DNA of 40,798 nucleotides from a virus. Below are positions 385 through 40,798 of the stretch, in pieces. Below the pieces are notes generated by a model. The model saw only the letters and a program-made list of their open reading frames with translations. It made no database searches and had not been told where the DNA came from. Within the stretch, counting starts at the first letter, position 1. Every line of letters begins with the position of its first letter. Location of the stretch: positions 1 through 40,798 of the IMG/VR virus record IMGVR_UViG_3300035145_000747; one strand, 5' to 3'. A program made the position numbers and the translations under genes.

Positions 385-1548
385 ATGAAAGCAATTATTA
401 TTTACACCGAAATCAATGGTTCAAGAGTTCAACATGACTCAATCAAAAGTGCCTTAGAGGCACATGGTTTATTTACTACTCGCATCTCTATGAAAGAGGG
501 AGTAAAGAAGCTACTACGTAATGGCATTAGTGTCTATGACCATGATGGTAATTCATTAGGGCAGATAGATACCAATCCCCAAGTCAAAGCGAGCAAGCCT
601 AAAGCACTAAAGCCTACGGCTACACCTACGTTTGATGTGTCATCCCTACGGGATATCATCCAAGCAGAGATACGCTCGGCAATGGATAACGTTCAGCTAT
701 CAGCAGACAAGCCAAGACGAGGCTCTAGTGTAATTGATGCGAGCAACATCCAAGAGGCTATTCAGAAGTACGCTAAGCCAAGCGTAGAGCATGACGGCTA
801 CTACGTATCAGACGAGGTATGGAAGCAGATTTTATTTGCCTTTAAGACCAACAAGCCAATCCTTTTAACGGGAGCGAGTGGAACGGGTAAAACAGACCTA
901 GTACGAGTCATTGGCTCAAGGTTAGGTCTAGGAGTTTATTCGGTTGACTGCTCGGCAATGGAAGATGCGAGCGAGGGATTCATTGGTAAACGTGAACTGA
1001 AAGACGGCAATACTTCATTTGAGCCATCTAAGTTTAGCGAGGCTATAGCACAAGAGCAGATAGTTCTACTAGACGAAGTGTCTCGTTCACCAGTAGGAGC
1101 AAATAACATCTTGTTCCCTTTATTAGACCATAGACGAGTCCTTATCAATCCCCATGGTGAAGACGTACCATGCGAGGCGTTCCTAATTGCTACGGCAAAT
1201 GAGGGAGCGAACTTTACGGGTACTCAAGTGATGGATGAGGCATTTAGGAATCGTTTCTATGTGATTAACATCGACTATGCACCACAAGACGTAGAAGTTG
1301 ACATCCTAACGAGACGTGATGGTATCAGCAAGGCAGATGCTACTCGCATTACGGGTATCGCTAAGACGATACGTCAACAAGCCTCTAGTGGAGACTTGAC
1401 TCGTTCAGTGTCACTTCGGGAACTATTCATAGCGAGCGAGCAGATAGCGTTCGGGTTCTCGCTCGAGGATGCATTAGAAAATGCATTTATCGGAGGGTTC
1501 CAAATCGATGAGCAGATGTCTATTCGTGACTTAATCAGAACTCAATAA
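385..1548 (+). CDS. MoxR/CobS-like AAA+ ATPase
   Basis: A 387-residue AAA+ ATPase. Residues 1-110 form a variable N-terminal part with a low-complexity linker (Lys/Pro/Thr, about 66-84). The ATPase core runs from about 140 to 370. Walker A is GASGTGKT (163-170), Walker B is IVLLDE (about 226-231), sensor 1 is in LIATAN (267-272), and a candidate arginine finger lies in FRNR (about 287-290). CobS and MoxR ATPases work as hexamers that remodel a partner carrying a VWA domain, and exactly such a partner is encoded 21 nt downstream. The natural client in phages of this kind is not known to me. The start at 385 follows an A/T-rich leader with no Shine-Dalgarno, as usual in Bacteroidota. Family assignment is firm; the biological role is inferred. 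Confidence 0.9.
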   Translation: MKAIIIYTEINGSRVQHDSIKSALEAHGLFTTRISMKEGVKKLLRNGISVYDHDGNSLGQIDTNPQVKASKPKALKPTATPTFDVSSLRDIIQAEIRSAMDNVQLSADKPRRGSSVIDASNIQEAIQKYAKPSVEHDGYYVSDEVWKQILFAFKTNKPILLTGASGTGKTDLVRVIGSRLGLGVYSVDCSAMEDASEGFIGKRELKDGNTSFEPSKFSEAIAQEQIVLLDEVSRSPVGANNILFPLLDHRRVLINPHGEDVPCEAFLIATANEGANFTGTQVMDEAFRNRFYVINIDYAPQDVEVDILTRRDGISKADATRITGIAKTIRQQASSGDLTRSVSLRELFIASEQIAFGFSLEDALENAFIGGFQIDEQMSIRDLIRTQ

Positions 1549-1569
1549 TTAACCTAAATATTTTACGAG

Positions 1570-3531
1570 ATGAAAGACGTAATCAACAACAGAAGTAGAG
1601 ACTTCATAACTAGAAACAAGAAGTCTATCAAGTGGTCAAAAGGAACCACAGAATTTGTACTAAGAGGCAAGTCTATCGGAGGGGTAGATGAGGCATTGAA
1701 ACTCATTTATTCACAGATGCGACACAGAGCCGTTTCTCTAGGCTATCCAAGAGTGCCTATTAACTTCGATGCGAACGGCTCGTATACGGACTTAAAAAGC
1801 ATTTGGGTAGGTCTTGACTACATCCACGATAATAACTTTACGCTCGAGCAGAAAGTAGACATCGCTAAAGGCTTAGCAAGCCATGAACTAGCACACATCA
1901 TGTACACTTGCCAACAAGCCAAGAAACGATGGGAGAAGAGCCTTACACGTGATGAGGTGAATCTTACCAATACTCAAGTCTTCTTAGACATCGCAAACAT
2001 CCTAGAAGACGAGCGTATCGAGACTAATCTAATCAAGAAGTTCGGAGGGGTTGCAGATGATTTAGCTTTAGTAAAGAGACGTTACTTCTCTAAGGTGGTT
2101 GACTTCAATCCCCAAGGTGAAATTCAGAACGCTCTAGTACTACTGCTATACATCGTTCGCTATCCATCGTCAATACCGCAAGAACTTATCGATGCTCAGC
2201 AAGACTTCTACGAGTTCGTATGCGAGCGAATCGATACGCTCTACAACAAGACGAGACTAACTGCTAAGAAAGACTACGAGCACATCCTACAAGCAAGCCT
2301 AGATATCATCAAGGTTTTACCAATGGGAGATGGCAAGTCAGCAGAGCAAGTTTCACAAGAGGCTAAAGAGAAAGCTAAGGAAGCAGAGAAGAAGATGTCA
2401 GATGCGAGCGACAAGAGATGGAAAGTTCGTGATGATAGAGATACGGAGATGAGCGAGGCAGACTCGTATGCGGAGCAGAACGAAATCCATGAGAACGCTC
2501 AAAAAGAAATCGAAGAGTTAGAGAAAACCATCATAGAATCGAGAGAGCAAATGGAGGAAGCGAAAGAGACTCAATTCAATCCATTCGGTAGAGGTAATAG
2601 CCTTAACGAGACTCTAGACGCTCGAAGCGATGACGATGCGAGAAACTTCGCAGAGTTATCTAAGAATCACAATTTCGATGAAATCACAGAGCGTGGTTCA
2701 TTCGTGAAGTGCGAAGGTCATATTTGCAAGCCAATCGTTGACGATGGGTATAGCAGATACTTACCAAGCGAGAAATTCGAGGAACACCATAACGCTATAA
2801 AGCCTTTGATGGGTACGCTTAAGCAAGCGATGGCATTGCAGTTCGAGACTCGCAATCGTATCGTTCGAAATCAGCGAAGTGGTCGTATCAAAAACGTAGT
2901 CGGGGCACACATCGGAAGACAAGACGTATTCGCTCGCAAGCCTCGCATGACTCAAGAGAAACTCAATCTTGTAATCCTCATTGACCAATCGGGTTCAATG
3001 GGTGACGAGAAGATAGAGATAGCGAGAGACTTCGCTATGTTATTCTATCAGACGTTTCGTAACTCGCCAAACGTTGACCTTTGGATGTATGGTCTTAGAA
3101 GTTTAGGTTCAGACCATCGCACCGAGGAGTTCTACTCGCCAAAACTGAAAGGCGAGTTTAGAAAGCGTTTTGGAGGTATGGTCGCAGGTGGAGCCAATGA
3201 CGATGGACACCAAATCGTTAGTCTAGTTGACCATGTTCGCTCGCATACTCAAGAGCCATGCATTCTCGTTTGCATCTCGGATGGTGAGCCAAGCGATAGA
3301 GACTATTTGAAATATTCAGTTCGCTACGCTAAATCGAAGAACTTCTTTCCGATTCAAATCGGAGTGGGTACCGACTACGGAAGTCGAGGCAATCAGTTCT
3401 TTGACGAGTGGGCAGAGGCATCGTTCGATGACATCTACCGAAACAATCTAGATTCAGCAGTGCTAAGAAAACAGGTAGTCAAGAAGTTTTCACAGGTAGT
3501 GCGAACTAAAGTAGCGAGTGTACTCGCATAA
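1570..3531 (+). CDS. CobT-like VWA-domain protein with HELAH zincin-like motif
   Basis: A 653-residue partner of the upstream AAA+ ATPase. An N-terminal half carries HELAH at 105-109 followed by ILEDERIE (about 144-151). That looks like a zinc-peptidase helix plus a downstream acidic ligand, the pattern seen in VWA-like/CobT-related putative metallopeptidases. Residues about 255-340 are highly charged (Lys/Glu/Asp) and probably coiled coil. The C-terminal third is a von Willebrand A domain with an intact MIDAS motif DQSGS (about 472-476) and a later acidic loop SDGEPSD. CobT uses its MIDAS face to dock the CobS-type ATPase. The last codons lie inside a palindrome (3513-3531). Whether the zincin motif is catalytic is unknown. 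Confidence 0.85.
   Translation: MKDVINNRSRDFITRNKKSIKWSKGTTEFVLRGKSIGGVDEALKLIYSQMRHRAVSLGYPRVPINFDANGSYTDLKSIWVGLDYIHDNNFTLEQKVDIAKGLASHELAHIMYTCQQAKKRWEKSLTRDEVNLTNTQVFLDIANILEDERIETNLIKKFGGVADDLALVKRRYFSKVVDFNPQGEIQNALVLLLYIVRYPSSIPQELIDAQQDFYEFVCERIDTLYNKTRLTAKKDYEHILQASLDIIKVLPMGDGKSAEQVSQEAKEKAKEAEKKMSDASDKRWKVRDDRDTEMSEADSYAEQNEIHENAQKEIEELEKTIIESREQMEEAKETQFNPFGRGNSLNETLDARSDDDARNFAELSKNHNFDEITERGSFVKCEGHICKPIVDDGYSRYLPSEKFEEHHNAIKPLMGTLKQAMALQFETRNRIVRNQRSGRIKNVVGAHIGRQDVFARKPRMTQEKLNLVILIDQSGSMGDEKIEIARDFAMLFYQTFRNSPNVDLWMYGLRSLGSDHRTEEFYSPKLKGEFRKRFGGMVAGGANDDGHQIVSLVDHVRSHTQEPCILVCISDGEPSDRDYLKYSVRYAKSKNFFPIQIGVGTDYGSRGNQFFDEWAEASFDDIYRNNLDSAVLRKQVVKKFSQVVRTKVASVLA
3513..3531. repeat. 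Palindrome AGCGAGTGTACTCGCATAA, near-copy at 6021
   Basis: GCGAGT-GT-ACTCGC forms a perfect 6-bp inverted repeat across the last codons and stop of the VWA gene. An almost identical element, lacking one central T and with the same flanks, lies at 6021-6038 upstream of the recombinase gene. Seen directly in the sequence; function unknown. Confidence 0.6.
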
Positions 3532-5315: not shown

Positions 5316-5332
5316 TCTCAATCCCCTAAGCT

Positions 5333-6195: not shown

Positions 6196-7218
6196 ATGAA
6201 AAAATTACTTTCCACTTGTATCAACGAGTTCGCAGAGTCAGAATACTCTACGACTCGTGGCAAAATCAGAAGCGAGATGACTAACAAGACGTACAGAAGC
6301 ATCTCGAAAAACTTGATTGAGATACTCTCAAGTAAAGACATCAACATCTACGATTACGATTTGTCTGGATTAGATGCGATGAAAGACAGACAGAAGTATC
6401 AAGAGCGTAACTCTAAATGGGAACGGCTCGCAATCAGAATCAAGAAAGAGTCAAGACACCTTAGCGAGAACGCTCTCAAGCACAGACTTGACTTCATGAA
6501 ACACGTACTCGTTCGCATTGAAGACGAGTTCGGAGTAAAGACAGGTAAAAAGTTCTTTAGGTACAAAGCGAGCAGAGGAATACCCACCGTGATTAACACG
6601 GAGCTGTTCAAGAAAACAGTGAAACACGCAAAGGATGTTTGTTCGAGCGATGAGTACACAAAACAACAACAACTCGGAGCTCTTACATTTCTTCTTTGTG
6701 CCTACACTTCTGCGAGGCTACGTGATTTGATGGAGCTCAGATACTCAAAGAATATTTCTTTCGGGAACTACTCGCATCCTAGTTATCTAACCTATCAAAA
6801 CAGAAAGACCAAGTCTGCCCCCGTTACTATTAAGCTACCGAACGACATAGTAAACATCTTGTTGTCTATGGAAACAGATAGCGACTTAATACTACGTGGT
6901 TATACAGATGGTACTATGCGTAATAACTTTAAGGACTTCCTTATGACTATGGAGGACTATCACATGAACGTTACCAAGACAACCCCCATGGCTAACGGAT
7001 ATGTAAAAGCTAAGAAGGTTAAACTCTACGAGATGATTACACCACACAAGGTGCGAGCAACCTTCATTACGCAGATGATTGAGAATGGTATCGACTTAGA
7101 AACTGTGATGAGTTTCAGTGGACACAACAACATCCTTACTTTATCCAACAGATATGCAAAGGTGAGTGACATCCACAAGGAATCGCAGTACGATATCTAC
7201 GCTTCCATCTTTGAATAA
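6196..7218 (+). CDS. Tyrosine recombinase / integrase
   Basis: A 340-residue site-specific recombinase of the lambda-integrase fold. Residues 1-125 form the SAM-like DNA-binding part and about 135-340 the catalytic domain. The full catalytic set is visible: R174 in TSARLRDL, K206 in the beta-hairpin, H284 and R287 in HKVR, H310 in SGHNN, and Y320 in SNRYAKV. Length and motifs are those of Bacteroidota phage/transposon integrases. The enzyme therefore looks active. It is the first gene after its own promoter/operator. It may integrate the phage, resolve multimers or process genome ends. No lysogeny repressor and no attP can be proven here. Confidence 0.9.
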   Translation: MKKLLSTCINEFAESEYSTTRGKIRSEMTNKTYRSISKNLIEILSSKDINIYDYDLSGLDAMKDRQKYQERNSKWERLAIRIKKESRHLSENALKHRLDFMKHVLVRIEDEFGVKTGKKFFRYKASRGIPTVINTELFKKTVKHAKDVCSSDEYTKQQQLGALTFLLCAYTSARLRDLMELRYSKNISFGNYSHPSYLTYQNRKTKSAPVTIKLPNDIVNILLSMETDSDLILRGYTDGTMRNNFKDFLMTMEDYHMNVTKTTPMANGYVKAKKVKLYEMITPHKVRATFITQMIENGIDLETVMSFSGHNNILTLSNRYAKVSDIHKESQYDIYASIFE

Positions 7219-7299
7219 ATTGCGAGTAGTTTTAACTTATTAACAAAACCTTCTAGATGTTGCTAAATGTTTTAACTTGCTATAAGCATCCTAAAACCA
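7219..7299. repeat. Intergenic gap with 10-bp direct repeat
   Basis: The 81-nt gap after the recombinase gene carries GTTTTAACTT twice (7229-7238 and 7269-7278), exactly 40 bp apart. This could be a pair of protein-binding sites. No promoter matching TAnnTTTG and no terminator stem is apparent. Confidence 0.4.
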
Positions 7300-7572
7300 A
7301 TGGCAAACCATACAATACGAATAGCAAAATGGAATCTGAATCTAGACCTAGGAGTTCTTACCGACAAGAACGTCTTGGTTAGTTTCGAACAACTGAAAGA
7401 GCATATCTTCAAAGAAAGAAATGACCTAATTCAGAAGTATAAAATCCGCTCCAAACTTTTACCCGATGGGTATACAATCAAGGTATTCGTAGCATGGGAT
7501 AGTGTGCTAGAAGAAATCATTGAATCAAAATATCTAGAAGAAGTTATTTATGGCAAAACTAAAAACAGTTAA
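7300..7572 (+). CDS. Hypothetical protein, 90 aa
   Basis: A 90-residue protein that begins the recombination gene group and overlaps the next start by 23 nt. The sequence looks alpha/beta, with a central charged helix (about 30-48) and a hydrophobic strand KVFVAWDSV. No motif is recognised. Its place immediately before the annealase/exonuclease pair suggests an accessory role in recombination or replication; this is only inference from context. Confidence 0.65.
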   Translation: MANHTIRIAKWNLNLDLGVLTDKNVLVSFEQLKEHIFKERNDLIQKYKIRSKLLPDGYTIKVFVAWDSVLEEIIESKYLEEVIYGKTKNS

Positions 7573-7963
7573 CATAAAGGGGAAACCTTATGTTATGGTG
7601 CAAGAGAAGATTAAACACTTCCGCACCGCAGAAGAGTACAAGAATTGGACACTACGTTCAGAGATTAAAACCTTGAACGAAGAAGTTGTGGTAGTACACG
7701 CTTGGGTGGAGGACACCGATGGAGTAGTGAGAGCAGACGCTCATGCTCAAGAGTTTCGTAATGCGAGTATGATTAATAAGACATCATACATTGAGAACTG
7801 CGAGACCTCAGCATGGGGAAGAGTTCTTTCTAATCTGGGGATTGGAGTTGACACATCTGTTGCGAGTGCAGAGGAAGTATTGAATGCTATGTCTCAGCAA
7901 CAACAACAGAAACCATCTAGCGTTAAGTTCAATCCACAACAAGCAGTCACGAGAAAGCAATGA
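7550..7963 (+). CDS. Probable phage ssDNA-annealing/recombination protein
   Basis: A 137-residue protein with a conserved-looking central block: an ADAHAQEF strand, then a stretch ending in SYIENCETSAWGRVLSNLGIG, then a SVASAEEV helix. This resembles the core of Erf/Rad52-like single-strand annealing proteins ('ENCETSA-GRAL--LGIG'). The C-terminus is Gln-rich and disordered. The gene overlaps the YqaJ-type exonuclease gene by 4 nt, and such exonucleases are normally paired with an annealase (RecT, Erf, Sak or Rad52 type). The pairing is strong context; the precise family is uncertain because the protein is short. Confidence 0.6.
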   Translation: MAKLKTVNIKGKPYVMVQEKIKHFRTAEEYKNWTLRSEIKTLNEEVVVVHAWVEDTDGVVRADAHAQEFRNASMINKTSYIENCETSAWGRVLSNLGIGVDTSVASAEEVLNAMSQQQQQKPSSVKFNPQQAVTRKQ

Positions 7964-9039
7964 AGAAAATAAAGATAGGTAGCTATACTCTTGTACCATA
8001 CAGAGACCTTAGCTACGATGAATGGCTAGAAATCAGAAACAGTTTTGGGTTAGCACTAGGTGGTTCTGATATGTCTGTAATCATGGGAGTAAACGAGTAC
8101 GCATCACTACCCATGTTGTTCGACCAAAAGTTAGGCTTAATAGATAAAGCCAATCTTACTCATAACAAGGCGGTCTTTTGGGGAAACAGAATGGAGAACA
8201 TCGTAAGAGAGTCATCTCAATACTACGATGTAGATAATGCAAATAGTTACCTATCTAATTTTGCTGATGGCAAAAAGGTTAGAAACCACATTGCTTTTGA
8301 CTACACAATTCAGAACGAGAACATCCCTTTCATGTTTGCTAACGTGGATGGTATTAGTATTGATGCGAGCGAGGAAGAAGTTGTTGATTTAGTTGAGGTC
8401 CAGGGGAAGATTCCAATCCCCGAGTCTATCATCGAGATTAAGACAATGAACAAGCACGTATACGACAAGTGGGGTAATGAGGCTGATGGAACTAAGGGGT
8501 TACCTATCGGTTACATTTATCAAGTACTCGCATACATGGTTCAGTATATGGAAATGAATCCAGACATCGATGCTTATATCTTTTCTCTCGTTGCGGGAAT
8601 GGACTTGCACGCATATCACATCGAATACAACGAGGACATCGTTAACGAGATGTTGACTAGAGCATACGAGTTCAACCTGCTACTGCAGGAGGGAGATGAT
8701 ATTATCCGTAATTCTTCAAGCGAGTCACAAATGAAGCGAGGTCTTGATGAGATAAGACCCGAAGCCGATGACTCTGATAACTATCAGCAGTACATCAATA
8801 AAAATTATTTGGACAAACTAGATGTTACCTCTCGTGCTTTAGGCACGGAGGAAATGTTAGAAGTAGCACGTAAGTATAGCGAGATAAACAAGCAGATGGG
8901 TACTCTTAAGCGAGAGAAAACTAAGTATGGTAACAAAGCGAGAGAGTTCCTAAACAAACTTGAGGTATCTCAAATAGATTTGCCAGATGATGGTGGAGTT
9001 ATTAAGTATAACAATAGATTAATTATAAAAGTGAAATGA
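7960..9039 (+). CDS. YqaJ-type viral recombination exonuclease
   Basis: A 359-residue PD-(D/E)XK exonuclease. Motifs in order: GGSDMSVIMG (34-43), the helix FWGNRMENIVRE (73-84) with a conserved Glu, the catalytic Asp in ANVDG (D130), E159-x-K161 in IIEIKTMN, and QVLAY (188-192) as the helix after the active site. This is the lambda-Exo-like YqaJ pattern. Such enzymes resect double-stranded ends to give 3' tails for the annealase encoded just upstream. The C-terminal 100 residues are a charged helical extension. Start overlaps the previous stop (ATGA). Confidence 0.88.
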   Translation: MKKIKIGSYTLVPYRDLSYDEWLEIRNSFGLALGGSDMSVIMGVNEYASLPMLFDQKLGLIDKANLTHNKAVFWGNRMENIVRESSQYYDVDNANSYLSNFADGKKVRNHIAFDYTIQNENIPFMFANVDGISIDASEEEVVDLVEVQGKIPIPESIIEIKTMNKHVYDKWGNEADGTKGLPIGYIYQVLAYMVQYMEMNPDIDAYIFSLVAGMDLHAYHIEYNEDIVNEMLTRAYEFNLLLQEGDDIIRNSSSESQMKRGLDEIRPEADDSDNYQQYINKNYLDKLDVTSRALGTEEMLEVARKYSEINKQMGTLKREKTKYGNKAREFLNKLEVSQIDLPDDGGVIKYNNRLIIKVK

Positions 9040-9242: not shown

Positions 9243-9570
9243 CAGAGAAGACTTTGATAAAAGAGAGGTACATACATTTGAGTTGATACTCTCATCGGTT
9301 AAGAAGAACTTTGTTCTTGACCCAACCCCCGAAGATTCTTTTGTTGCATCCAAATCCATCGAAGGAGTAAAGACTATGCCTCACTTGGTCATCTTCTTTT
9401 TGTGTTACAATTTCAATGTACCTATCGAACTAATGATATTGCATTTTGATTTGACCGATAAGAAGTTCAAGGAGTTTAGTAACAGACTCTGTATTGGTAT
9501 CCATAAAAACGATGTTAAGCTTTTAAGAAAGATTGAAATATGCAAGAGCTACATAGACCGAAAACTATAA
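9217..9570 (+). CDS. Hypothetical protein, possible HTH, 117 aa
   Basis: A 117-residue protein overlapping the upstream HTH gene by 26 nt. Residues about 50-95 look like a helical bundle with a possible HTH (FNVPIELMILHFDLTDKKF), loosely like the four-helix DnaA C-terminal or transposase-type fold. The match is weak. It lies between a DNA-binding protein and the single-strand DNA proteins, so a replication or regulation role is plausible but unproven. The start could also be 6 nt later at 9223. Confidence 0.6.
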   Translation: MTMVLGRSNREDFDKREVHTFELILSSVKKNFVLDPTPEDSFVASKSIEGVKTMPHLVIFFLCYNFNVPIELMILHFDLTDKKFKEFSNRLCIGIHKNDVKLLRKIEICKSYIDRKL

Positions 9571-10225: not shown

Positions 10226-10298
10226 TACGTCTATACGTTATATACCCTCAGTATATAACGTATAGTACGTATTACTATACGTATTTAGTATACGTATT
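10226..10298. other. Candidate replication origin: 15-bp hairpin plus three iterons
   Basis: CTATACGTTATATAC (10231-10245) and GTATATAACGTATAG (10251-10265) are perfect inverted copies around the 5-nt loop CCTCA. The stem can be extended by TACGT/ACGTA with a one-nt bulge. Immediately after it TACGTATT occurs three times (10266-10273, 10278-10285, 10291-10298) at 12-13 nt spacing. The DNA is very A/T-rich. It lies between the SSB-like gene and the primase-helicase gene. This is the build of an iteron origin or a strong operator. No terminator T-tract follows the hairpin. Confidence 0.55.
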
Positions 10299-10349
10299 AA
10301 GTATAAAAAACTAAATAAATTATTACCAACCAAATGTTTTTTTCAGAAA

Positions 10350-12277: not shown

Positions 12278-12296
12278 CTTTTTAACAATATATACA

Positions 12297-14243: not shown

Positions 14244-14379
14244 CCGATTCGAACACTTCTAAACACAGTTCTACTAAAGGTAAGTATAAAACATGCATTG
14301 AGGATATGCTAGTGTAGTAAGTTCTCAACCCTAAAAGTATTCCTGGGTATAGTCCGATTGATAATGTCCAGCTTTTCAT
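14227..14379 (-). CDS. Small hydrophobic protein, 50 aa
   Basis: Found by reading the 240-nt gap between the neighbouring minus-strand genes. The product begins MKSWTLSIGLYPGILLGLRTYY, has a hydrophobic middle, and ends in an acidic tail with a VLYLPLVELCLEVF segment. Leftward translation fits the operon, and its end overlaps the next gene by 17 nt. The amphipathic, membrane-seeking character is clear; function is unknown. Confidence 0.65.
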   Translation of the reverse strand: MKSWTLSIGLYPGILLGLRTYYTSISSMHVLYLPLVELCLEVFESDEELE

Positions 14380-14452
14380 TTGGTTGTTTGGAAATTTATG
14401 TGTATGTTTGTCTCATATTGTTTTCATAAACGGTAATAGTTAGGTTAACACT

Positions 14453-29504: not shown

Positions 29505-32021
29505 TTAAGAGAGGTGTCCAGAGGATAGGTCAGTTTCAATGATGACGTTGTTCAGTCTAGTTTGTATGTCATTGTTTCTTAGTGTTAGCTTGACATCTGT
29601 TATAGAACCTGTAACGTGGTCTCCTGAAACCAATCCCCCAGTAGAACCTGAGTCTCTTAAAATATGCGAGTAAAGAACTCGCTCCTCTGCAAAGTAGTTT
29701 GCTTCTACCAGCTCAGTGCTTTGTCCGTTCTCGTTATCGATATCCACTCTAATAAGCTCCGACTTAACATCGTTAGCGTTATTATAGTCATAGATATCCA
29801 TGTTCGTATATATCTTGATGTTCTTCAGAACTTCTGGCAGTTGTGTGTTCATCACGTAAGTAATGTCTGCGTCTTTCTCTGTTCCAAAGAACTCTGTGTA
29901 ATCTGATTGTAATGACTCGTAGTATTCTACATTGCTACCCGAAGTCTTAAATAGTAGCATATTCTCTTCTCTGGTTTCTGCTGCTTGAGATGTGATATCG
30001 TAGAATGATATCCATCTGTTACGTCCTTCATGGAAACCTACAGACTTAGTATCTGAGTCAAACTGTATATGGTAAGTGTCGTAGTATGGGTCGTAGAATC
30101 CTAGACAATCCCCTGACTTATCTAAGAAGTATGACTTCATAAAGTAGTCTGATATAGGAGTTAGTCCGTCTGCTCCGTATCGCATTACCTTCTTCTTGTT
30201 GTTATCCCAGAAGTATATGTTACCTGCGTACTGGACTATAGAGCGTCTATGGCTTGAGCCAAATCCGCCTTTTAGATTTCTTACTGTACCAATGACGCTT
30301 TGAATACTAGAAACAAATCCGTCTCCTGTTGTTCCAGAAAGAACTGCTTCACCAATATAAAGCGAGGCTGTTTCTCGCTCGCATATTGCAAGCATTATAT
30401 CCCCGTCCGACTCGACTTTACTTGCTCTCTTAAGCGATGTGATTGCTCCGTTCTCATACGGCACTTCAGCTTCTTGAACAAACGAGAATGACGAAATGGG
30501 GTTAATGTTTGTCCCCTGGATATATTTACCTCCATATTTTATTTTAGATTCGTTTCGGTTTCTTGATTGATTGTCATATTCAACTAATACTTTACCGAGA
30601 TTTCTGTCCCAATTAGAATTTCTAGTTGTTCCGTTTACTTTACGAATCAATACTTTTACATTATGCTCAAGGTTTTGAGCTAATATATGGTCGTCAGAGT
30701 GAGTGCTATTGATACTGTAAGTTCTCATAGCGACATTAATAAACGTCATATCTCCCTCTATAGGATTACTGTTTATGTCAAAAACCACTGGTTGATTTAA
30801 GGAAGGGAAATCTGTATCTATACTTCTAAGCTCACCAGTTTCATAGAAAATTTGAGTGTCTTCAAGCGAGCGAGGAGAATAAATTTCAAAGAACATTCTC
30901 CAAACCTCTACATCATCTCCTGCATTTAATGAGTTTCTGGTGTCATAAGTAACTCCGTAAGCACTAGTTTCAAAGCTTTCTCCAGCGGTCCATTCTACAT
31001 ATATAAAATTGTCTGATTGTCCGACAACCTTCATGTTTCTAATAACCTTACTAGAGCTAGTAGATGATAGATTTAAATTTATTCTATCTCCTGCCTGATA
31101 GGTATACGTGAATCCAGATTGAATCATACCAGATATATCAAGGACTAAATACAGTATATCTCCTCGATACGTATCTCTAATATATCTCATGTCTTCTTCA
31201 GTACCGTTCTTAATTTTCCAGAAGTAATGAGAAGCATATCCTTCGTATGAGAAATCTTTAGTAAGATTCTTAGTCATTACTACTTGATAGTACTTAGCCC
31301 AGCTAGGAGTATCACCCATTCTTTTTAAGGTGACTTTTGGATTTATAGGATAATCAAAATTACCTGTCTCAAAATCCTTATAAACTTCAACACCTCTAGT
31401 TCTTAGGTATTCATCATAAAAAGCAATTCCTATCTTATACTGAGATGCATTTGTAAAAGCTTTAATTCCATACCCACTAACTCTTGCGTAAGAAAGGTCT
31501 GAATAGTTTAGATAAGATTGTGGATTATCAGTTTGAATAGACCCTGTAAGCTGAGTGTCAGAGTCGTCAATCTGGATAAACATATTATGAGGGTCGTTAT
31601 CAAAGTCGTCTTTATTGTTAGCTAAAAAGACTCTGTTGTTAGCAACCTCTATTGTTTTAGTTTCTAGTGGAATAGTATCAAACAACTTCGTTGACTCTTC
31701 TGATGGTAACGCTTCAAACAATTCTCCTGAAAAAGTAAAGAACGTTTGTTTACTAACGTCTAGCGTAGCACATCTTCTAAACACACCTTCATTACCTACT
31801 CTAGCATATATGTCTAGATACTTAGCATAGGTTGGGTGTGAAGAACCTACTGTAATTCTATATTTAGCTGGACTATTAAGGTGAGCGTTATTAACGATAT
31901 ACTCTTTAGCCTCTATAACTTTAGATATAGGACCGATAGCAGATACTTCTCCAGAATCATAAACATATCTGCCTACGAACTGAATACCATTTTCCTTAAA
32001 TATCTCCTTATCTAATGCCAT
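29505..32021 (-). CDS. Tail nozzle/stabilisation-like protein, main part, 838 aa
   Basis: A large beta-rich protein. The start (FVGRYVYDSGEVSAIGPISK) and a later module (about 560-660, containing RSIVQYAGNIYFWDNNKKKVMRY and PISDYFMKSYF) are the pattern I associate with the nozzle or tail-stabilisation proteins of Bacteroidota podoviruses, including crAss-like ones, where they form a beta-propeller-like tail tube end. In those phages a preceding part belongs to the same chain. Here that part is in the next upstream gene. The 2-nt spacing to that gene (TAA-C-ATG) fits coupled translation. Confidence 0.6.
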   Translation of the reverse strand: MALDKEIFKENGIQFVGRYVYDSGEVSAIGPISKVIEAKEYIVNNAHLNSPAKYRITVGSSHPTYAKYLDIYARVGNEGVFRRCATLDVSKQTFFTFSGELFEALPSEESTKLFDTIPLETKTIEVANNRVFLANNKDDFDNDPHNMFIQIDDSDTQLTGSIQTDNPQSYLNYSDLSYARVSGYGIKAFTNASQYKIGIAFYDEYLRTRGVEVYKDFETGNFDYPINPKVTLKRMGDTPSWAKYYQVVMTKNLTKDFSYEGYASHYFWKIKNGTEEDMRYIRDTYRGDILYLVLDISGMIQSGFTYTYQAGDRINLNLSSTSSSKVIRNMKVVGQSDNFIYVEWTAGESFETSAYGVTYDTRNSLNAGDDVEVWRMFFEIYSPRSLEDTQIFYETGELRSIDTDFPSLNQPVVFDINSNPIEGDMTFINVAMRTYSINSTHSDDHILAQNLEHNVKVLIRKVNGTTRNSNWDRNLGKVLVEYDNQSRNRNESKIKYGGKYIQGTNINPISSFSFVQEAEVPYENGAITSLKRASKVESDGDIMLAICERETASLYIGEAVLSGTTGDGFVSSIQSVIGTVRNLKGGFGSSHRRSIVQYAGNIYFWDNNKKKVMRYGADGLTPISDYFMKSYFLDKSGDCLGFYDPYYDTYHIQFDSDTKSVGFHEGRNRWISFYDITSQAAETREENMLLFKTSGSNVEYYESLQSDYTEFFGTEKDADITYVMNTQLPEVLKNIKIYTNMDIYDYNNANDVKSELIRVDIDNENGQSTELVEANYFAEERVLYSHILRDSGSTGGLVSGDHVTGSITDVKLTLRNNDIQTRLNNVIIETDLSSGHLS

Positions 32022-32022: not shown

Positions 32023-33912
32023 TTATGAGCTTGATTGAGGGTTAACGTTAATGAATGAATCTAATGCTACCGCACTCCATGCAGGTTGAACAACTGTACT
32101 TAACTGGCATTTGATTTTAAACTGAGCACTAATAGTAAAGCTACTGAAAGTAGTACTTCCTGAGCTAACTATAGATGCATTAGTTATTTTAGAACCTACC
32201 GAACCTAGAGTTATACTTATTTCTTCATCGCTCTGACTACTAAACTTAGATAGTGTAAATACAATATAAAGATAGGTAGAACCACTCGCAGCAGTGTTTA
32301 CTGGGAATCTCTTACCGTATACATTTTTATTACTAATATCCCCTGTATAGGTGGCTAGCGACAATCCCGTAGGGTTTGATGTATCAGAAGTATCTAAGTA
32401 CATCTTATTAATAGTCCACGTCCAAGTACCAGGAGCTACAGTGTCTCTAACAACTATTGGACGAGTCGTAAGTATACCTGATATGTTAGCTGTATTAGAA
32501 TCAACAGTACCATCGTTTGCAGTGTAAGTTATTGGATTACTCGCAGAAATACTCGTTACACTCGCATCCTGTGGTGGAGTATAAAGTAATCTATCAACCG
32601 AGTTTTCTATACTAATACTACCCCCATACTCTGAAGGAAGTGTAGCACTATAAGTTAAGTCATCTCCATCTGCATCTGTAACGCTATAAATGAAGTTCAC
32701 TCTGTGATTTACTTCTGTGCCTGTTGGCTCAGCAAAAGACGTTACGTCATTAGCAACTGGAGCTGAGTTCTGAGGTGCTACAGAATTTACTGTAACAGCT
32801 ATTGTATTTGTCGTTGCTGTATTTCCAGCAGCGTTAGTTACAGTGATAGTCAAACTATATGAGCCAGCTGTAAGAGCTGTAGCTGTAACTAGGTTTCCAT
32901 TAGAATCAACTTCGAACTGTGAGTTACTAGATGTAAATACTAATCCTTCTGTGTTAGCAGGGTCAGATGTTCCAGAGGTTGCTGTTATATCAATCCCCGT
33001 ATCAAACCCAACAGCCTCATCATCATCAATAGATAAAGTGTATGCGGAAGCTGATATTGTAGGAGTAGCTCCAGTAAGAGTTAAAGTAAACTCCTCTGAA
33101 TAAGAGAGGTTACTAGAATCTACTACCTTAAATACAGCTGTAAAGCTTCTATCTGCTGTATTATTATAACTAAATGTATCTGCTGACTGAAGCACCGCTG
33201 TAGTGTCTGATGTGCTTGAATCTACTAACGTGAATCTAGAAGAAGCGTCAGTACCATTAGCATCTAATATTGATTCTAATGTAAATGATAGACTAGTCTC
33301 TCCAGCAGTATCTGTAGCTGTAACCGTAGCTATAGTGCCTCCTGATGCGAGTGATTCTGAGAATGATGTTGTATTAAGAGATAAGTCAGTAGGGGCTACA
33401 CCCACGTTTTCAACTTCAAATACAAAGTTGAATGTAGGTGGCTTCTTGATAAGCGTTAAGTCTGCAATATCTGATATAGTAACCACATCTCTTTCTGTAT
33501 ACCATGATAACGGAGTTCCGTTGTCGTGATAGTTCCAAACTAAAACATCCCCAACCTTTTTAAGGTCTGGGGTGAAGTCTGTAGTCACATCGTGCGTGTA
33601 CTTTACTTTTTCTGTAAAAGTAGTATCTCCCTCTGTGTATTCGAATATCTTAGCATAGGTGTCTCCTTTTACTAATATGTACAACACCCCTAGATTATCT
33701 ACTACTGCAGCTTTCACTACGGGATTGGTAAGACCAGAGGCAAAACTCTTTACTGTTTTTATTGCCTCCATTGTTTTTAGAGAACCAGCACCCCCACTAG
33801 CAGACGTATCTAATACGATATTGTTAGCGTCAATGTAATCTCCTTTTGATAAAAGATATTTGTCTACATCTTTATTTAAACCCCCTGTAGCTCTAAGTGT
33901 ATTCTTCGGCAT
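32023..33912 (-). CDS. Tail protein: nozzle N-terminal part plus Ig/cadherin-like domains, 629 aa
   Basis: Residues 1-160 (GGLNKDVDKYLLSKGDYIDANN, later DVLVWNYHDNGTPLSW and KKPPTFNF) read as the first part of a tail nozzle/stabilisation protein. Residues about 170-260 are cadherin-like (VAPTDLSLN, DTAGETSLSF), and about 265-490 contain further Ig-like/bacterial repeats (AGSYSLTITVTNAAGN, DADGDDLTYSATLP). Ig-like modules on phage tails bind cell-surface sugars or decorate the virion. Domain calls are by pattern, not by search. Confidence 0.6.
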   Translation of the reverse strand: MPKNTLRATGGLNKDVDKYLLSKGDYIDANNIVLDTSASGGAGSLKTMEAIKTVKSFASGLTNPVVKAAVVDNLGVLYILVKGDTYAKIFEYTEGDTTFTEKVKYTHDVTTDFTPDLKKVGDVLVWNYHDNGTPLSWYTERDVVTISDIADLTLIKKPPTFNFVFEVENVGVAPTDLSLNTTSFSESLASGGTIATVTATDTAGETSLSFTLESILDANGTDASSRFTLVDSSTSDTTAVLQSADTFSYNNTADRSFTAVFKVVDSSNLSYSEEFTLTLTGATPTISASAYTLSIDDDEAVGFDTGIDITATSGTSDPANTEGLVFTSSNSQFEVDSNGNLVTATALTAGSYSLTITVTNAAGNTATTNTIAVTVNSVAPQNSAPVANDVTSFAEPTGTEVNHRVNFIYSVTDADGDDLTYSATLPSEYGGSISIENSVDRLLYTPPQDASVTSISASNPITYTANDGTVDSNTANISGILTTRPIVVRDTVAPGTWTWTINKMYLDTSDTSNPTGLSLATYTGDISNKNVYGKRFPVNTAASGSTYLYIVFTLSKFSSQSDEEISITLGSVGSKITNASIVSSGSTTFSSFTISAQFKIKCQLSTVVQPAWSAVALDSFINVNPQSSS

Positions 33913-33918: not shown

Positions 33919-34722
33919 TTAGTTTTTGATTGAACCGTGAATACCTGTTCTTAGTGAGGCTATGATGTCTGCATAAGTAAGCGAGTTCAAGCGAGCTCGC
34001 AATCTCCTCTTAGCATTTACGTAGTCTTGTTTTGCTAAACCAACCTTGTTAAAAGATGCGTTGGTATGATAGTGTTTTTGATATATAATATACTTCTTAA
34101 TTACATCCTGAGCGTATGGGTGTACTACGTTAGCTTCTGTAGTTGATACGCCATCAGTAATATAAGTAAGAGTTACTTTATTAACTTCCATTGCGTTATT
34201 AAATACTAACTCTCCAGAATCACTATCTACATTGTATGATTGTGATTGCTGTCCTGCAATCCCGTAAGCTCTACCTACGTGCTCACCATATTCGTTTACG
34301 TGTCCAAAATGTGATGTAGTAGTATATACTAAGTCTAAGTCGTAAGTAATGTTGTCCTGGTCTGCGTATGCTACTTTATTGCCTTGCCCATCGTATTTCT
34401 GAATGATATTTAAAGAAGGGTCTAAGCGAAGCGGTAAGACATGTTCTCCGTACTTAGCAGACACATCTACAATGTCAACACAATCTCCTGGGAGAATCGC
34501 TCTCATGTAGTCTGTTACGTCTAATTCCACAGACTTTACGTTACTAGCAGTAGCACCTGCATAGTTAGCAGAAACACTACCAGTTTCCCCTAAAGGAAAG
34601 TCGTAGTTTAATTCCTCTAAACATTGAATACCATAGTGCAGAAAACGCACGTAGTAATGCAGTGGAAACTGCATATCCATTAATGTATTTCTAACTATAT
34701 GATTAAGTGTTACGGTCTTCAT
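33919..34722 (-). CDS. Tail ring/connector-like protein, 267 aa
   Basis: A mixed alpha/beta protein with a Tyr-rich N-terminal helix (LHYYVRFLHYG) and a helical C-terminal end (YAQDVIKKYIIYQKHY, then KRRLRARLNSLTYADIIASL). This end-pattern is like ring proteins that stack below the portal in Bacteroidota podoviruses. It is followed closely by two other similar-sized structural genes. Overlaps the upstream gene by 20 nt. Virion role likely, exact position inferred. Confidence 0.6.
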   Translation of the reverse strand: MKTVTLNHIVRNTLMDMQFPLHYYVRFLHYGIQCLEELNYDFPLGETGSVSANYAGATASNVKSVELDVTDYMRAILPGDCVDIVDVSAKYGEHVLPLRLDPSLNIIQKYDGQGNKVAYADQDNITYDLDLVYTTTSHFGHVNEYGEHVGRAYGIAGQQSQSYNVDSDSGELVFNNAMEVNKVTLTYITDGVSTTEANVVHPYAQDVIKKYIIYQKHYHTNASFNKVGLAKQDYVNAKRRLRARLNSLTYADIIASLRTGIHGSIKN

Positions 34723-35395
34723 TTGCTGCTATTTCTGCTTGTGATACCTGTCCTATTCCAATCATTCTAAGAACTTCTTGAATCACATCTGATTCATATT
34801 CTGGGCTTAATGGTAGTATACCATTATCTCCTAATTCAGACAAGTCACTAACTAACAAGTGAACATCTACTAAAGTCGCTACTTGAATTTGAGCACCACC
34901 TTCTCCTATTCCTGTTATATTGTTAGTAAAGTAAATTCTTCTACCCTGCACGTAATACCCTGTCTGTTGTTCTAAGTAAGATGTATTTATACCTCCTGTT
35001 TGTGTTTCTCCTGTATATTCAACCCCCATGACTTGCCAATCTTGAGAAGAGATGGGGATGTAAGGACTCCAAGGCGTAGTTCCTAAATTAACTTGCCATA
35101 CACCCATATCCATTGGAAGTGATATAGGTAGTGTAGGTAAGTCTACGTAAGCTCTATTTTTAGAACTTTCTGATTGTGCATTAAGTTGATATTTAACAAG
35201 ATTACATCTTGGAATATCAATATACCCATCTGTAAATCTTTCAAAAGTCTGAGCTTTCAAAACTTTATTCATCGCTTGTTCGATGAGAATTTTAACTTCT
35301 CTTGTATCAAGCGAACGATTTATGTTCTCCTTATCAGAGTAACGAGCGTATATACGTTGTATGAGTTCTGCTAACTTCTTCTTAGTTGTTGCCAT
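34703..35395 (-). CDS. Virion connector/ring-like protein, 230 aa
   Basis: The N-terminus is a charged helix (LAELIQRIYARYSDKENI) followed by beta-rich sequence with many Tyr, Gly and Pro residues and a helical C-terminus. No catalytic motif. Gene order between two other structural genes points to the head-to-tail connector. Overlaps its neighbours by 20 and 14 nt, so it is tightly co-translated. Confidence 0.6.
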   Translation of the reverse strand: MATTKKKLAELIQRIYARYSDKENINRSLDTREVKILIEQAMNKVLKAQTFERFTDGYIDIPRCNLVKYQLNAQSESSKNRAYVDLPTLPISLPMDMGVWQVNLGTTPWSPYIPISSQDWQVMGVEYTGETQTGGINTSYLEQQTGYYVQGRRIYFTNNITGIGEGGAQIQVATLVDVHLLVSDLSELGDNGILPLSPEYESDVIQEVLRMIGIGQVSQAEIAANEDRNT

Positions 35396-36506: not shown

Positions 36507-36830
36507 TTACATTCCTTTCTTGTGTTTCTGGCTCTTCGGTGGACTCTTCTTCAATCCCCCTTTACCAGCCCAAAAGAATTTATCAGCCCAGTAGGCTGCA
36601 CTAGTCTTACCTTTTTTGATATTAGAAGCGTGTCTTGCTTTGAAAGATTTACGTGCTTCTGGACTATAGTTATGACCCATACCTTGTGCTCCGAATCGGA
36701 TAACTTTTATCTTGTCTCCGTCTCGTACTGCAACAATCCCCTTCTTAGTGGGATGTGATGGAGTTCGCTTTGGTTTGTTAAGACCTTTTAGTCCGTACTT
36801 AGCTAGTTTCTTTTTTTCTGAATCTTTCAT
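36507..36830 (-). CDS. Small basic protein of marine-phage type, 107 aa
   Basis: A Lys-rich protein whose middle reads PKRTPSHPTKKGIVAV, then IKVIRFGAQG, then FKARHASNIKKGKTSAAYW. I recognise this layout from small proteins of marine tailed phages and some large viruses, function unknown. The gene overlaps the next basic protein by 4 nt, and the two often occur together. No catalytic motif. Probably virion- or DNA-associated. Confidence 0.6.
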   Translation of the reverse strand: MKDSEKKKLAKYGLKGLNKPKRTPSHPTKKGIVAVRDGDKIKVIRFGAQGMGHNYSPEARKSFKARHASNIKKGKTSAAYWADKFFWAGKGGLKKSPPKSQKHKKGM

Positions 36831-37247: not shown

Positions 37248-37988
37248 CTATTGACTACCGCCTCCACCTTCTGTTGGCAGACCGCCACCGCCTCCGCCAC
37301 CGCCTGAACCAGCAGCTTGAGTGACAGTAACAGTATGTAAAAGATTATCGCTTGAATAACAGCTACCACTAATATATACGCTAAAGGTCAACGACCTGCT
37401 GCTTGTAGTGCTGTTAGTTTCTACATTTAAGTATCTTATTGTGCTGCCTGAAGAAGCAGTAAAATTAATTGCTGTACTTCCGCTACCTCCAGTTGTATCT
37501 GAACTAGTGCTTAGTCCTGCCCAAGACTGATTAATAGACATATAGATAATAGCCCCTGTACCTTTTGGAGTATAATCAAGGTCAAACTCCCATCTGAAAC
37601 TCTGACCTGCTGCTGAAGCACTAATAGCTGTGCCTGTAAAACAAGCTGTATTAAAGTTAAGCTTCATACAGCCTAATTCCCTGTTACCTACATGACCTCT
37701 AAACTCAGACATCGCATAAGGAGTAGCAGTATATCCACTGCCTTGCTCTAAGTTTGGGTCGTAAGGAGCTACTACATTAAACCCATTGACCTGAAATACA
37801 TTATCCATAGGTGGACAGAAGTTATAATCACTACCATTAGCGTTTCCTCCACGCATTAAGTCATACATAGATATGTTGGTTAGGTTAACGGTAGAACCAC
37901 TAACATAACCATTAACACCTACGTCATTATATCTACGCTCCTTAGCGACACCTCGCATTGATATTTGTCCACTAGTTGGAACCGCCAT
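37248..37988 (-). CDS. Tail-tip/baseplate-like protein with Gly-rich end, 246 aa
   Basis: It starts MAVPTSGQISMRGVAKERRYN, then NLTNISMYDLMRGG, a beginning shared with short fibre or baseplate-associated proteins of marine myo- and podoviruses. The middle is beta-rich, with a tandem of Ser/Thr strands (about 125-220), and the C-terminus is an extreme glycine run (GSGGGGGGGG, GGGGSQ). It follows the fibre gene with 17-nt overlap. Adhesin-like role likely. Confidence 0.6.
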   Translation of the reverse strand: MAVPTSGQISMRGVAKERRYNDVGVNGYVSGSTVNLTNISMYDLMRGGNANGSDYNFCPPMDNVFQVNGFNVVAPYDPNLEQGSGYTATPYAMSEFRGHVGNRELGCMKLNFNTACFTGTAISASAAGQSFRWEFDLDYTPKGTGAIIYMSINQSWAGLSTSSDTTGGSGSTAINFTASSGSTIRYLNVETNSTTSSRSLTFSVYISGSCYSSDNLLHTVTVTQAAGSGGGGGGGGLPTEGGGGSQ

Positions 37989-40798
37989 TTAATCTTGATT
38001 TAAGTTCATCAATCTGTTCTTGTTGTTCTTTAACTGCTTCAATAAGCACACCAACTATTTTCTCGTAATCTACAGTCTTGTATACTTTATCGCTGTCATC
38101 CATTAAAGGCATTTTCTTCTCTCTTACAATCTCAGGAAGCACTTGTTCTACTTCTTGAGCAATAAGACCTAAATCCTTCTGTCCTTCTCTGTGACCTTTA
38201 TTCCAAACATATTCAACTCCTCGTAAAGATTTTATTTTACCGAGTGCATTGTCTATTGTTTTTACTTCATCTTTTAATCTAATATCTGAAATAGTTGAAG
38301 AGTATGCAATAACATCTCCTTCTACATGAAGGTCGCCATCATTCTCTAATCGCATATCCTCAGCACTATCTAAGAAGAATCCTATAGAGGTCGCTCTAAT
38401 TAAAATCCTGTCAGCAGAACCATTTGCTCTTACTAAACTTAAATCTTCATCATAAGAACCAATAGTTCCACCATTTACAATTACTTTTTTATCAAAGTAG
38501 TTACCTCCTCTATCTGTAGTAAAATGACACCAAGAAGTATTTTGAGGACCGATATTTACATTACCTGAATTGGTAGTTATATTGAGAGAATTACCACTAC
38601 CCTTTAAAAGTTTAGTATTAGAATCATCAATCTCTATTCTACCATAAGCTCTTACTCCTCCATCTATAGTTCTAAATCTATCAGCTCCATTTTCAAAAAG
38701 CCTAACATAAGTTCTTGCTTGGTTGCAATGCATGTAAATTAACGCCTGATTAGTGCCTGAAGTGTTTTCACCTTGAAAATATATGTTTCCATTTGCATGG
38801 TGATAGTTTCTGAAGTAAGTGTCTGTACCATTGTGCCACATTCTAAAATCAGAGCCTTCTCCTAAACGGATAGTATCACTATCCCTCATCTTCATATAGT
38901 TGTTACCCCATTCAGTAACTTCTGCTCCTGCAATAACTACTCTAAATTGGTCGGTGGCATGAAATTGTAGATATGTGTTGGTGTCTCCCGTATGAATAAT
39001 TTGGTCTGCTACATAAATATCATTTATTCCTTGAATATTGTTCCCGGAAAAATCAACGTAAGTAGCGGCACGGTCGCCGTGCATAATAAGCGAACCAGTA
39101 GCATTGTTATCATGACCCCACATACCCCATTCGCCATTTCCTATCTGAGATAGTCCTGTCCAAGAGTTACCACCTGCAGTAGTTACTGTTGTAGCTCCAC
39201 CTCTGTACCCAATAGACATACCATAACTGTCCATTGAAGTAGTAGTTGAATTATGTTCAGAAAAGAATAATCTTCCTGAACCTTCACCTGAAGCGTCTGT
39301 GTTACCTTCAAAAGAAAGCCATCTGCCTCCATTGTTAGTTCCATTACCAGGAGTACCTAAGCTTAAACTACCGTTTGAATGTATTCTTAGTTTTTGATAA
39401 CCATTCCAAGGAACTCTAAATCCTAGATAACCAGTTTCATTAGAGCTTCCCATTTGAGAAAATATATCACAGTGCAGTCCTATACTTCCATTGAAAGAAC
39501 GTAGACGCATACCTGCATTCCCTCCGCCTGTATCGTCATTAACTCTAAGTTGAGGAAAAGAGTTGTCTACGATATGCACTTGTGCACCTGCTGATGCAGT
39601 ACCAAACCCTGCTGAACCATCAGTATCAATCTCCCAGTTATAACCAAACATTCTGTTACCCCTAACAAGAACATTATCTCCTGAAGTGTTACCTAAGTAA
39701 AGGTTATTTGCGTATAAGTAAGTATTACTGTTGTTGGTATAGAAGTCTTGATTTATTCTAACCCTTGAGCCTGAATCATTGTAGAAATATCCACCACCTG
39801 TTCCAACATATAAATTATCTCCAGCTCTAATACTAGCATTTACGTCTAACTGGTAAGAAGGTTCTTTACCAATCCCCACCTTATTATCATCAGTAATATT
39901 AAGCACGTTATAAGTACCATCTATATTTCTTAGATAGTAGTGTCCATTAGAACCTATATTGTGTGCCCATGTCCTTACACCTGTACGCACCATTGAAATG
40001 AACCCATCACTACTCGTTCTAATTCTCACTGGAGCAGCATTAGTAACATCAGCAGCTTCTCCAAATAACGCACTACCTACTACATGGAGGTCTTGTGTTG
40101 GAGTTGAGGTGTTAATACCCATACGTCCATTGGTATACGTATATGTAGCACTATCCCCTAACTGTATTTTATCAGGGTCAGTTCCTTCATCTAACAGTAT
40201 TACATTTCTTCCTCCTGCAGCTAATTGTACTTGGTCTCCTTGGAATCTAAGATATGTATTTGTGTCGCCATTATGGTAAATGTATTCACCTACATACATA
40301 TTTGTAGCGGTTAAATCTCCAGAGATTGTACTTGACTGGTCTGTTCTTACAAACGAACTCGCATGTAAACCATCAAGCATGTCTGCATTTAGATTCGAAC
40401 CTACACCATCATTTCCTTCATGGAATACTTTGTTAGCTCCTAAGTAGATGTTGGGGGATTGTCCTGATTGTCCCCACTTAATCTGACCAGGAGTGGCTGT
40501 ATGAATAAATGTAGTTCCTGAATAAACAGTAGCTGTAGGGCTAAAAGTAATTTCCTCATTATTTAGAGGAAATATCTCTATTGCAGCACCAAAGCTAGTT
40601 CCTGCATTCGCACTACCTGTGTATTGTAAGTAGATATCAAAGTCCTCGTTGTTATTACTTATAATCTTAATGTCTAAGCTAGAATAATTACCAGCTTGAG
40701 AATGAACTATAATGTCTGCAGAGTGGTTTACAGATATATCAGAAAGACAGTTTACTACAATATTACCTGTAGTACCATGAACTGTCATTCTTATTGTA
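37972..40798 (-). CDS. Tail fibre/spike with C-terminal S74 chaperone domain, partial
   Basis: The frame runs from the right edge, with at least 938 residues. An ATG at 40788 is possible, but the frame stays open to the edge, so the true N-terminus may be missing. The central part is beta-helix-like, with repeated blocks such as HxGDTNTYLxF (three sites: two clear, one degenerate) and Gly/Asn/Thr-rich strands. The C-terminus is a Peptidase_S74 intramolecular chaperone: SDIRLKDEV (from S834), LGKIKSLRGVEYVW, then GLIAQEVEQVLPEIV. These domains trimerise the fibre and cut themselves off at the Ser. Host recognition is the likely role. Confidence 0.85.
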   Translation of the reverse strand, partial: TIRMTVHGTTGNIVVNCLSDISVNHSADIIVHSQAGNYSSLDIKIISNNNEDFDIYLQYTGSANAGTSFGAAIEIFPLNNEEITFSPTATVYSGTTFIHTATPGQIKWGQSGQSPNIYLGANKVFHEGNDGVGSNLNADMLDGLHASSFVRTDQSSTISGDLTATNMYVGEYIYHNGDTNTYLRFQGDQVQLAAGGRNVILLDEGTDPDKIQLGDSATYTYTNGRMGINTSTPTQDLHVVGSALFGEAADVTNAAPVRIRTSSDGFISMVRTGVRTWAHNIGSNGHYYLRNIDGTYNVLNITDDNKVGIGKEPSYQLDVNASIRAGDNLYVGTGGGYFYNDSGSRVRINQDFYTNNSNTYLYANNLYLGNTSGDNVLVRGNRMFGYNWEIDTDGSAGFGTASAGAQVHIVDNSFPQLRVNDDTGGGNAGMRLRSFNGSIGLHCDIFSQMGSSNETGYLGFRVPWNGYQKLRIHSNGSLSLGTPGNGTNNGGRWLSFEGNTDASGEGSGRLFFSEHNSTTTSMDSYGMSIGYRGGATTVTTAGGNSWTGLSQIGNGEWGMWGHDNNATGSLIMHGDRAATYVDFSGNNIQGINDIYVADQIIHTGDTNTYLQFHATDQFRVVIAGAEVTEWGNNYMKMRDSDTIRLGEGSDFRMWHNGTDTYFRNYHHANGNIYFQGENTSGTNQALIYMHCNQARTYVRLFENGADRFRTIDGGVRAYGRIEIDDSNTKLLKGSGNSLNITTNSGNVNIGPQNTSWCHFTTDRGGNYFDKKVIVNGGTIGSYDEDLSLVRANGSADRILIRATSIGFFLDSAEDMRLENDGDLHVEGDVIAYSSTISDIRLKDEVKTIDNALGKIKSLRGVEYVWNKGHREGQKDLGLIAQEVEQVLPEIVREKKMPLMDDSDKVYKTVDYEKIVGVLIEAVKEQQEQIDELKSRLNGGSN

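Follow-up and report, generated by a model that had tools for sequence, protein, structure and literature searches.

A degenerate, strand-polar octamer enriched in two phage lineages as a candidate Chi-like signal

Why does one eight-base word recur all over a phage genome, and mostly on one strand? The question is raised by the virus record IMGVR_UViG_3300035145_000747 of IMG/VR, whose whole stretch of 40,798 bases (G+C 39.1%) was analysed and is called the window here. An earlier note, made from the letters alone, had pointed out 27 exact copies of the octamer CAATCCCC, 21 forward and 6 reverse. The recount gave exactly these copies, spanning positions 573 to 40461. The note had expected less than one copy at a G+C content of 38-40%, judged by eye; dinucleotide shuffles of the window gave an expectation of 0.41, and the largest count in 100 shuffles was 3. 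CAATCCCC is the top-ranked 8-mer of the window (z = 44 under an order-2 model; z = 21 for the runner-up). Can codon usage explain this, which the note had denied? Synonymous-codon shuffles, in which codons were swapped among synonymous positions with each gene's protein (gene overlaps apart) and codon pool kept, gave 2.2 copies on average and never more than 5 (300 shuffles). Since these counts fall far below that observed, codon usage does not explain CAATCCCC. The copies occupy all three reading frames, sense and antisense, and 26 of the 27 lie within the 44 listed open reading frames (ORFs); the exception, at 5319, is the gap copy that the note had already seen.

It was found that the fuller word is CAAYCCCS, or SGGGRTTG on the opposite strand; the window holds 36 copies of it (28 plus, 8 minus). 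CAAYCCCW occurs twice, which is the chance level. In SGGGRTTG, position 1 is G or C and position 5 is A, less often G; other substitutions are near chance. The IMG/VR contig IMGVR_UViG_3300042731_000588 (59,083 bases; hereafter G001) holds positions 363-40796 of the window, reversed, at 99.0% identity. It adds 18.6 kb beyond the window, with GroES, terminase, portal, and an SU10-like capsid gene, and its genes form two arms converging near 45 kb. G001 has 36 copies of SGGGATTG in 59.1 kb (0.61 per kb), while 0.9, 1.2, 3.8, and 10.4 are expected under Markov models of order 2, 3, 4, and 5, respectively; order 5, the highest used, already holds much of the word itself. Synonymous shuffles of the whole of G001 gave a mean of 3.5 and at most 8 copies (200 shuffles). 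Thus, in the background check proposed in the earlier note, the count stays above the dinucleotide, codon, and Markov (order 2-5) models. The rarer form SGGGGTTG, expected 0.7 times (order 2) or 3.6 times (order 5), occurs 8 times in G001, each time on the common strand. The left 18.6 kb of G001 is poor in SGGGATTG (4 of the 36 copies, p = 0.004) and holds 4 of the 8 SGGGGTTG copies. No flanks common to the copies were seen.

Is the word conserved in other phages? TerL and primase place G001 near podovirus-like phages of Bacteroidota (Flavobacterium elemo phages are about 33% identical). Two diverged relatives, G023 (58.8 kb) and G024 (56.0 kb), have a G+C content of 0.33 and a TerL 78% identical to that of G001. 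In the parts that align, their genomes are mostly 66-72% identical to G001, a single short block reaching 84%; to each other they are 91-96% identical in long blocks. In G023, 21 copies of SGGGATTG stand against 0.6, 0.6, 1.5, and 5.5 expected under the same four Markov orders, and against a mean of 2.5 (largest 6) in synonymous shuffles. The ratio of SGGGATTG to WGGGATTG is 36:1 in G001, 21:0 in G023, and 19:0 in G024, and SGGGGTTG has 4 copies in G023 and 5 in G024. A further record, G420, is over 99.9% identical to G024 in the 23 kb compared (SGGGATTG 11:4 on the two strands); it is the same phage and therefore not independent evidence. L011 and L012 are closer relatives of G001, with primases 94% and 84% identical. 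Thus, the independent lineages bearing the word are two, not more. As for other viruses, at most one copy of CAATCCCC occurs in 18 of 19 primase-bearing virus records, and 5 copies occur in the remaining one, of 80 kb. The word has 6 copies in lambda, 1 in T7, and 3 in SPbeta.

Does the word follow the genome or the genes? Strand counts of the relatives are given in the terminase-forward orientation, in which the common strand reads SGGGRTTG. SGGGATTG lies on the common and the other strand at 28:8 in G001 (p = 0.001), 17:4 in G023 (p = 0.007), and 15:4 in G024. The control for polarity was the strand ratio of the word's own anagrams in the same arm. In early-arm genes the word runs 6:1 in G001 against 66:111 for the anagrams (p = 0.013), and 3:0 against 36:88 in G023 (p = 0.025); the combined p for both lineages is 0.003. 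The ratio is also 4:0 in the early-arm genes of G024 (p = 0.022), and again 4:0 in those of L012, whose anagrams are even (p = 0.13). When the early arm is taken by position, genic or not, G001 has 7:2 against 73:128 (p = 0.014), G023 4:0 (p = 0.007), and G024 4:0 (p = 0.018); with the R variant, the counts are 9:2, 4:0, and 4:1. The word thus holds its genome strand in the early arms against both gene direction and base skew, which indicates that its direction follows the genome. In late-arm genes, the word runs 21:6 in G001 against 465:244 for the anagrams (p = 0.23), and 13:3 against 425:128 in G023. The arm counts of the earlier note (6 forward and 2 reverse on the left, 15 and 4 on the right) are correct. 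Its claim of an orientation set by the genome rather than the gene stands on the strength of the early arms of both lineages; in the late arm, the bias equals that of the anagrams.

Common-strand copies tend to be evenly spaced, although this depends on the definition of the word. For SGGGATTG, the coefficient of variation is 0.70 in G001 (p = 0.033), 0.58 in G023 (p = 0.013), and 0.65 in G024 (p = 0.062), and with the R variant G001 is more even than random as well (0.68, p = 0.010). The trend is absent when both strands are pooled, and for the GGGG-only sites, GGGGATTG. Since several related spacing tests were made, the even spacing is treated as suggestive. Among aligned sites, 3 of 6 are conserved between G001 and G023 (background 8.0%, p = 0.009) and 18 of 19 between G023 and G024 (background 77%, p = 0.044). 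Sites also turn over between relatives, as expected for a word that is replaceable by a copy nearby. Taken together, the enrichment in relatives, the early-arm orientation, and the conservation make the word look selected as DNA and oriented along the genome. The earlier note had offered a Chi-like signal, a translocation or packaging guide, or a methylation motif; a selected, genome-oriented DNA word is supported, and no single function is singled out.

What may the word do? It is probably a recombination or DNA-protection signal. More narrowly, I tentatively favor, at somewhat less than an even chance, that SGGGRTTG works like Chi and is read by the helicase-nuclease of the host. The reader, the reading direction, and the benefit that I infer would be as follows. 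An AddAB- or RecBCD-type helicase-nuclease of a Bacteroidota host would have imposed selection for this short polar word on the phage clade. Entering at a free end of the phage DNA, linear or concatemeric, the enzyme would, on meeting the word, switch from destroying the DNA to feeding recombination. One-strand copies every one to three kilobases would then protect the genome from one end and supply both host RecA and the recombination enzymes of the phage. In lambda, Chi is reported to act on enzyme entering from the end packaged last. If SGGGRTTG is read as E. coli Chi is, it would likewise act on enzyme entering from the last-packaged end.

How does the word compare with a known Chi? As in DNA that carries Chi, it is over-represented and strand-biased, with the late-arm bias no more than composition. 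E. coli Chi, GCTGGTGG, has 50 copies in the 94.8 kb of P1 (0.53 per kb, strands 31:19), a density and strand use close to those of SGGGATTG in G001; it runs 7:1 in T5 and is absent from lambda (0 copies). The P1-like density and the use of two strands favor a Chi-like role. The enrichment, the degeneracy at two positions, the early-arm orientation, the conservation between the lineages, and the trend to even spacing were counted for it as well. Like Chi in P1 and T5, the word is G-rich, eight bases long, and dispersed on both strands with one favored. Unlike E. coli Chi, it is a different word with two degenerate positions and a much stronger enrichment, and no chromosome with a clear excess of it was found. 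According to an excerpt of PMC3784561, Chi is over-represented in phages that have recombinases and lack a known inhibitor. In the present phage, recombination genes are present, and no RecBCD-inhibitor family was recognized among the ORFs scanned, although the libraries did not each cover all ORFs; this was counted for the Chi-like reading. The same excerpt describes RecBCD inhibitors as small, fast-evolving proteins (PMC3784561).

Several results weigh against a Chi-like role. The strongest is the failure to find, among the sampled genomes, a chromosome in which the word is clearly in excess. In nine Bacteroidota genomes, sampled over 42-200 kb each, observed/expected ratios were 0.82-1.39 (order 4) without consistent polarity, and the ratio of S to W forms over 296 Bacteroidota genomes had a median of 0.99 and a maximum of 3.0. 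The enrichment that the earlier note proposed to look for in candidate host chromosomes was thus not clear in any chromosome sampled. Two genomes with a high S/W ratio, G220 and G172, were rejected as hosts; they are G+C rich (0.64-0.66), with observed/expected ratios of 0.90 and 1.26. The true Chi of E. coli is only 2.3-fold over expectation on the chromosome (PMC3784561, excerpt), so the host may lie outside the genomes sampled. The enrichment in the phage is far above the median observed/expected ratio of 2.5 given for Chi in coliphages (PMC3784561). Furthermore, the late-arm polarity is no more than compositional background, the even spacing with the R variant is weaker in G023 (p = 0.084) and G024 (p = 0.144), and conservation is not significantly above background in L012 (2 of 5 sites; background 23%) or L011 (2 of 3; 65%). 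Fourteen other phages, which are TerL or primase relatives or known Bacteroides phages and eight of which have a named Bacteroidota host, show no enrichment (9 copies in 1.13 Mb). The earlier note expected enrichment in related phages with the same hosts. The diverged relatives G023 and G024 are enriched with the same polarity; the fourteen would count against the expectation only if they share the host.

Some other leads on the host side were followed. Runs of up to 13 of 13 places on the plus strand in many Bacteroidota genomes were first taken as a phylum-wide replichore signal. This was rejected as an effect of listing order, since four stretches of 200 kb had neither polarity nor excess and the W control gave the same runs. 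Co-occurrence of AddAB with the word was also dropped: PDDEXK_1 turned up in both groups compared, 36 of 40 genomes in all, and the groups came from a reversed-word control that reflected base composition, so the comparison is uninformative. G081, also with a high S/W ratio, offers 42 kb and 3 sites only, and G092 and G115 were left out of the count, with contigs of only 9.3 and 1.3 kb. In one of the nine Bacteroidota stretches, G276 (C1 1-100000, L134-L138), SGGGATTG runs 6:19 and its anagrams 1217:1392. A primase search of genome contigs gave one weak Chryseobacterium match. TerL was searched for in 395 Bacteroidota genomes at E <= 1e-40 and the exonuclease at E <= 1e-15; neither was matched, and such an empty result carries no weight.

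Might the phage read the word itself? A packaging or ejection motor, start sites of the primase/helicase, or a phage recombination protein could use a polar word in place of the host's Chi, and the uniform orientation would then reflect a single direction of packaging, ejection, or rolling-circle replication. I consider this unlikely, though the most probable of the alternatives. Enrichment seen only in the phage clade, and neither in the sampled chromosomes nor in the other phages examined, would suit it, as would one favored strand in both arms. Both lineages that keep the word also retain the exonuclease, the ERF-like protein, the primase/helicase, and RusA. However, the other strand holds 22% of the SGGGATTG sites in G001 and 19% in G023. 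No packaging or priming system is known to me that works through dozens of 8-base words scattered over a genome, nor any dispersed code of a phage's own that replaces host Chi.

Less likely still is that the words are nick sites, with a phage nickase cutting one strand at each, as in phage tf, T5, and phiKMV-like phages. In tf, the 9-base word TACTRTGMC, with two degenerate positions, occurs in 14 copies on one strand only, and tf relatives carry nick sites at similar places (PMC3517423, excerpt). The present word resembles that of tf in being asymmetric and degenerate at two positions, with a favored strand and partly conserved sites, in a podovirus-like genome of two convergent gene arms. 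What weighs most against nicking is that 8 of 36 sites in G001 and 4 of 21 in G023, or about 20%, lie on the other strand, whereas those of tf are all on one strand. No nickase was identified either. The HNH gene of the window (13682-13975) has no counterpart found in G023 or G024, which keep the word. The small protein at 13326-13712, conserved in both lineages, is by eye a possible nuclease; its structure prediction is poor (predicted local distance difference test score, pLDDT, 43), and a nickase may still be present.

Was the word shaped by the host? It could be a guide for chromosome translocation like KOPS (FtsK-orienting polar sequences) or AIMS (architecture imparting sequences), or a host modification motif acquired by the phage. 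KOPS, GGGNAGGG, is a G-rich polar octamer, as is the word here. AIMS are strand-biased octamers as well (PMC5993296, excerpt). The integrase gene suggests that the phage may live in a chromosome. Yet the sampled Bacteroidota chromosomes have neither a clear excess nor a consistent polarity of the word, whose density in the phages is far higher. KOPS and AIMS are chromosomal and rise towards the terminus, whereas this word was found enriched only in phages, with one favored strand throughout. Moreover, dozens of modification sites would bring no obvious benefit. Such an origin thus appears improbable.

That the word has no function and arose through codon pairs, base composition, mutation, or the spread of a repeat is very improbable. 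The partly compositional strand bias, the turnover of sites, the background-level conservation against L011 and L012, and the over-representation of a second word, GCGAG, in G001 would fit it. It has to face the synonymous shuffles, the Markov models to order 5, the copies in three frames and on both strands and one outside the listed ORFs, and enrichment with above-background conservation in a lineage only 66-72% identical (G+C 0.39 vs. 0.33), with no shared flanks seen. The stoperators of mycobacteriophage L5 are short asymmetric sites in short intergenic gaps that follow transcription. Some 30 short asymmetric copies together with an integrase bring to mind these dispersed repressor operators of a temperate phage, but such a role is scarcely credible with 26 of the 27 CAATCCCC copies inside ORFs and an orientation set by the genome regardless of transcription.

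If the Chi-like reading is true, the behavior of a host AddAB or RecBCD nuclease should change at SGGGATTG compared with TGGGATTG. Should the enzyme ignore it, a phage signal not yet described would be indicated. For Bacteroides fragilis, the processivity of AddAB has been measured, and its Chi sequence was called unknown in 2014 (PMC4027173, excerpt). In the literature searched, no report of a Chi word for Bacteroidota was found by title or start of abstract, and six spellings of the present word, searched as whole words, matched only unrelated subjects, as judged by title. A Chi-like word strongly over-represented in Bacteroidota phages is a concrete candidate for tests on purified enzymes.

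Where are the sites? On the plus strand of the window, so that SGGGRTTG is read on the opposite strand, CAATCCCC lies at 573-580, 1146-1153, 2106-2113, 5319-5326 (the copy outside the listed ORFs), 8414-8421 (where L012 has the G variant GGGGGTTG), 13640-13647 (conserved in L011), 14109-14116 (conserved in L012), 17780-17787 (conserved in G023 and G024), 18963-18970, 21259-21266, 23277-23284, 24645-24652, 25986-25993, 27584-27591, 28429-28436, 29631-29638, 30106-30113 (not conserved in G023 and G024), 32991-32998, 36552-36559, 36734-36741, and 39870-39877. The copies on the minority (minus) strand are at 7837-7844 (not conserved in L012), 12482-12489 (not conserved in L011 and L012), 21449-21456, 23786-23793, 24785-24792, and 40454-40461. 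CAATCCCG is found on the plus strand at 10629-10636 (conserved in L011 and L012), 32362-32369, and 34257-34264 (not conserved in G023 and G024), and on the minority strand at 26448-26455 and 33720-33727 (conserved in G023 and G024). The variant CAACCCCC occupies 6980-6987, 9323-9330, and 35020-35027, and the variant CAACCCCG 25207-25214, all on the plus strand.

The exonuclease/annealase pair claimed in the earlier note is supported, and a resolvase was recognized besides. On the plus strand, an ERF-like single-strand annealing protein (7550-7963), a YqaJ/RecE-like exonuclease (7960-9039), a DNA primase/helicase (10350-11999), and a RusA-like Holliday junction resolvase (12547-12960) all have counterparts in L012, G023, and G024. 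The predicted fold of 7550-7963 (pLDDT 72) matches viral proteins, some of which are named Essential recombination function protein; against PDB, it gave no match with E <= 0.001. A tyrosine integrase is encoded at 6196-7218; apart from it, the podovirus-like genome has its relatives among Flavobacterium and Cellulophaga phages. G023 and G024 have a stretch 34% identical to the integrase. At the start of the early arm (385-3531), a MoxR-type AAA ATPase and a von Willebrand factor A protein are encoded side by side, and G023 and G024 showed no match to them. The window also has an open frame of 3011 residues at 17851-26886. A tail gene at 37972-40788 runs past the window end; its full span in G001 is 10264-21474, with 3736 residues. 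The intergenic regions contain TATATTTG and TATGTTTG, which I take to fit the Bacteroidota promoter element TAnnTTTG.

As for the second word, TGCGAG has 78 copies in the window against 13 expected (e.g., 7221-7226), and GCGAGCGA has 14 against 0.4. TGCGAG/GCGAG occurs in every frame and about equally often on both strands. G001 and the L012 contig (27 copies in 10.5 kb) are enriched in it, and G023 and G024 are not.

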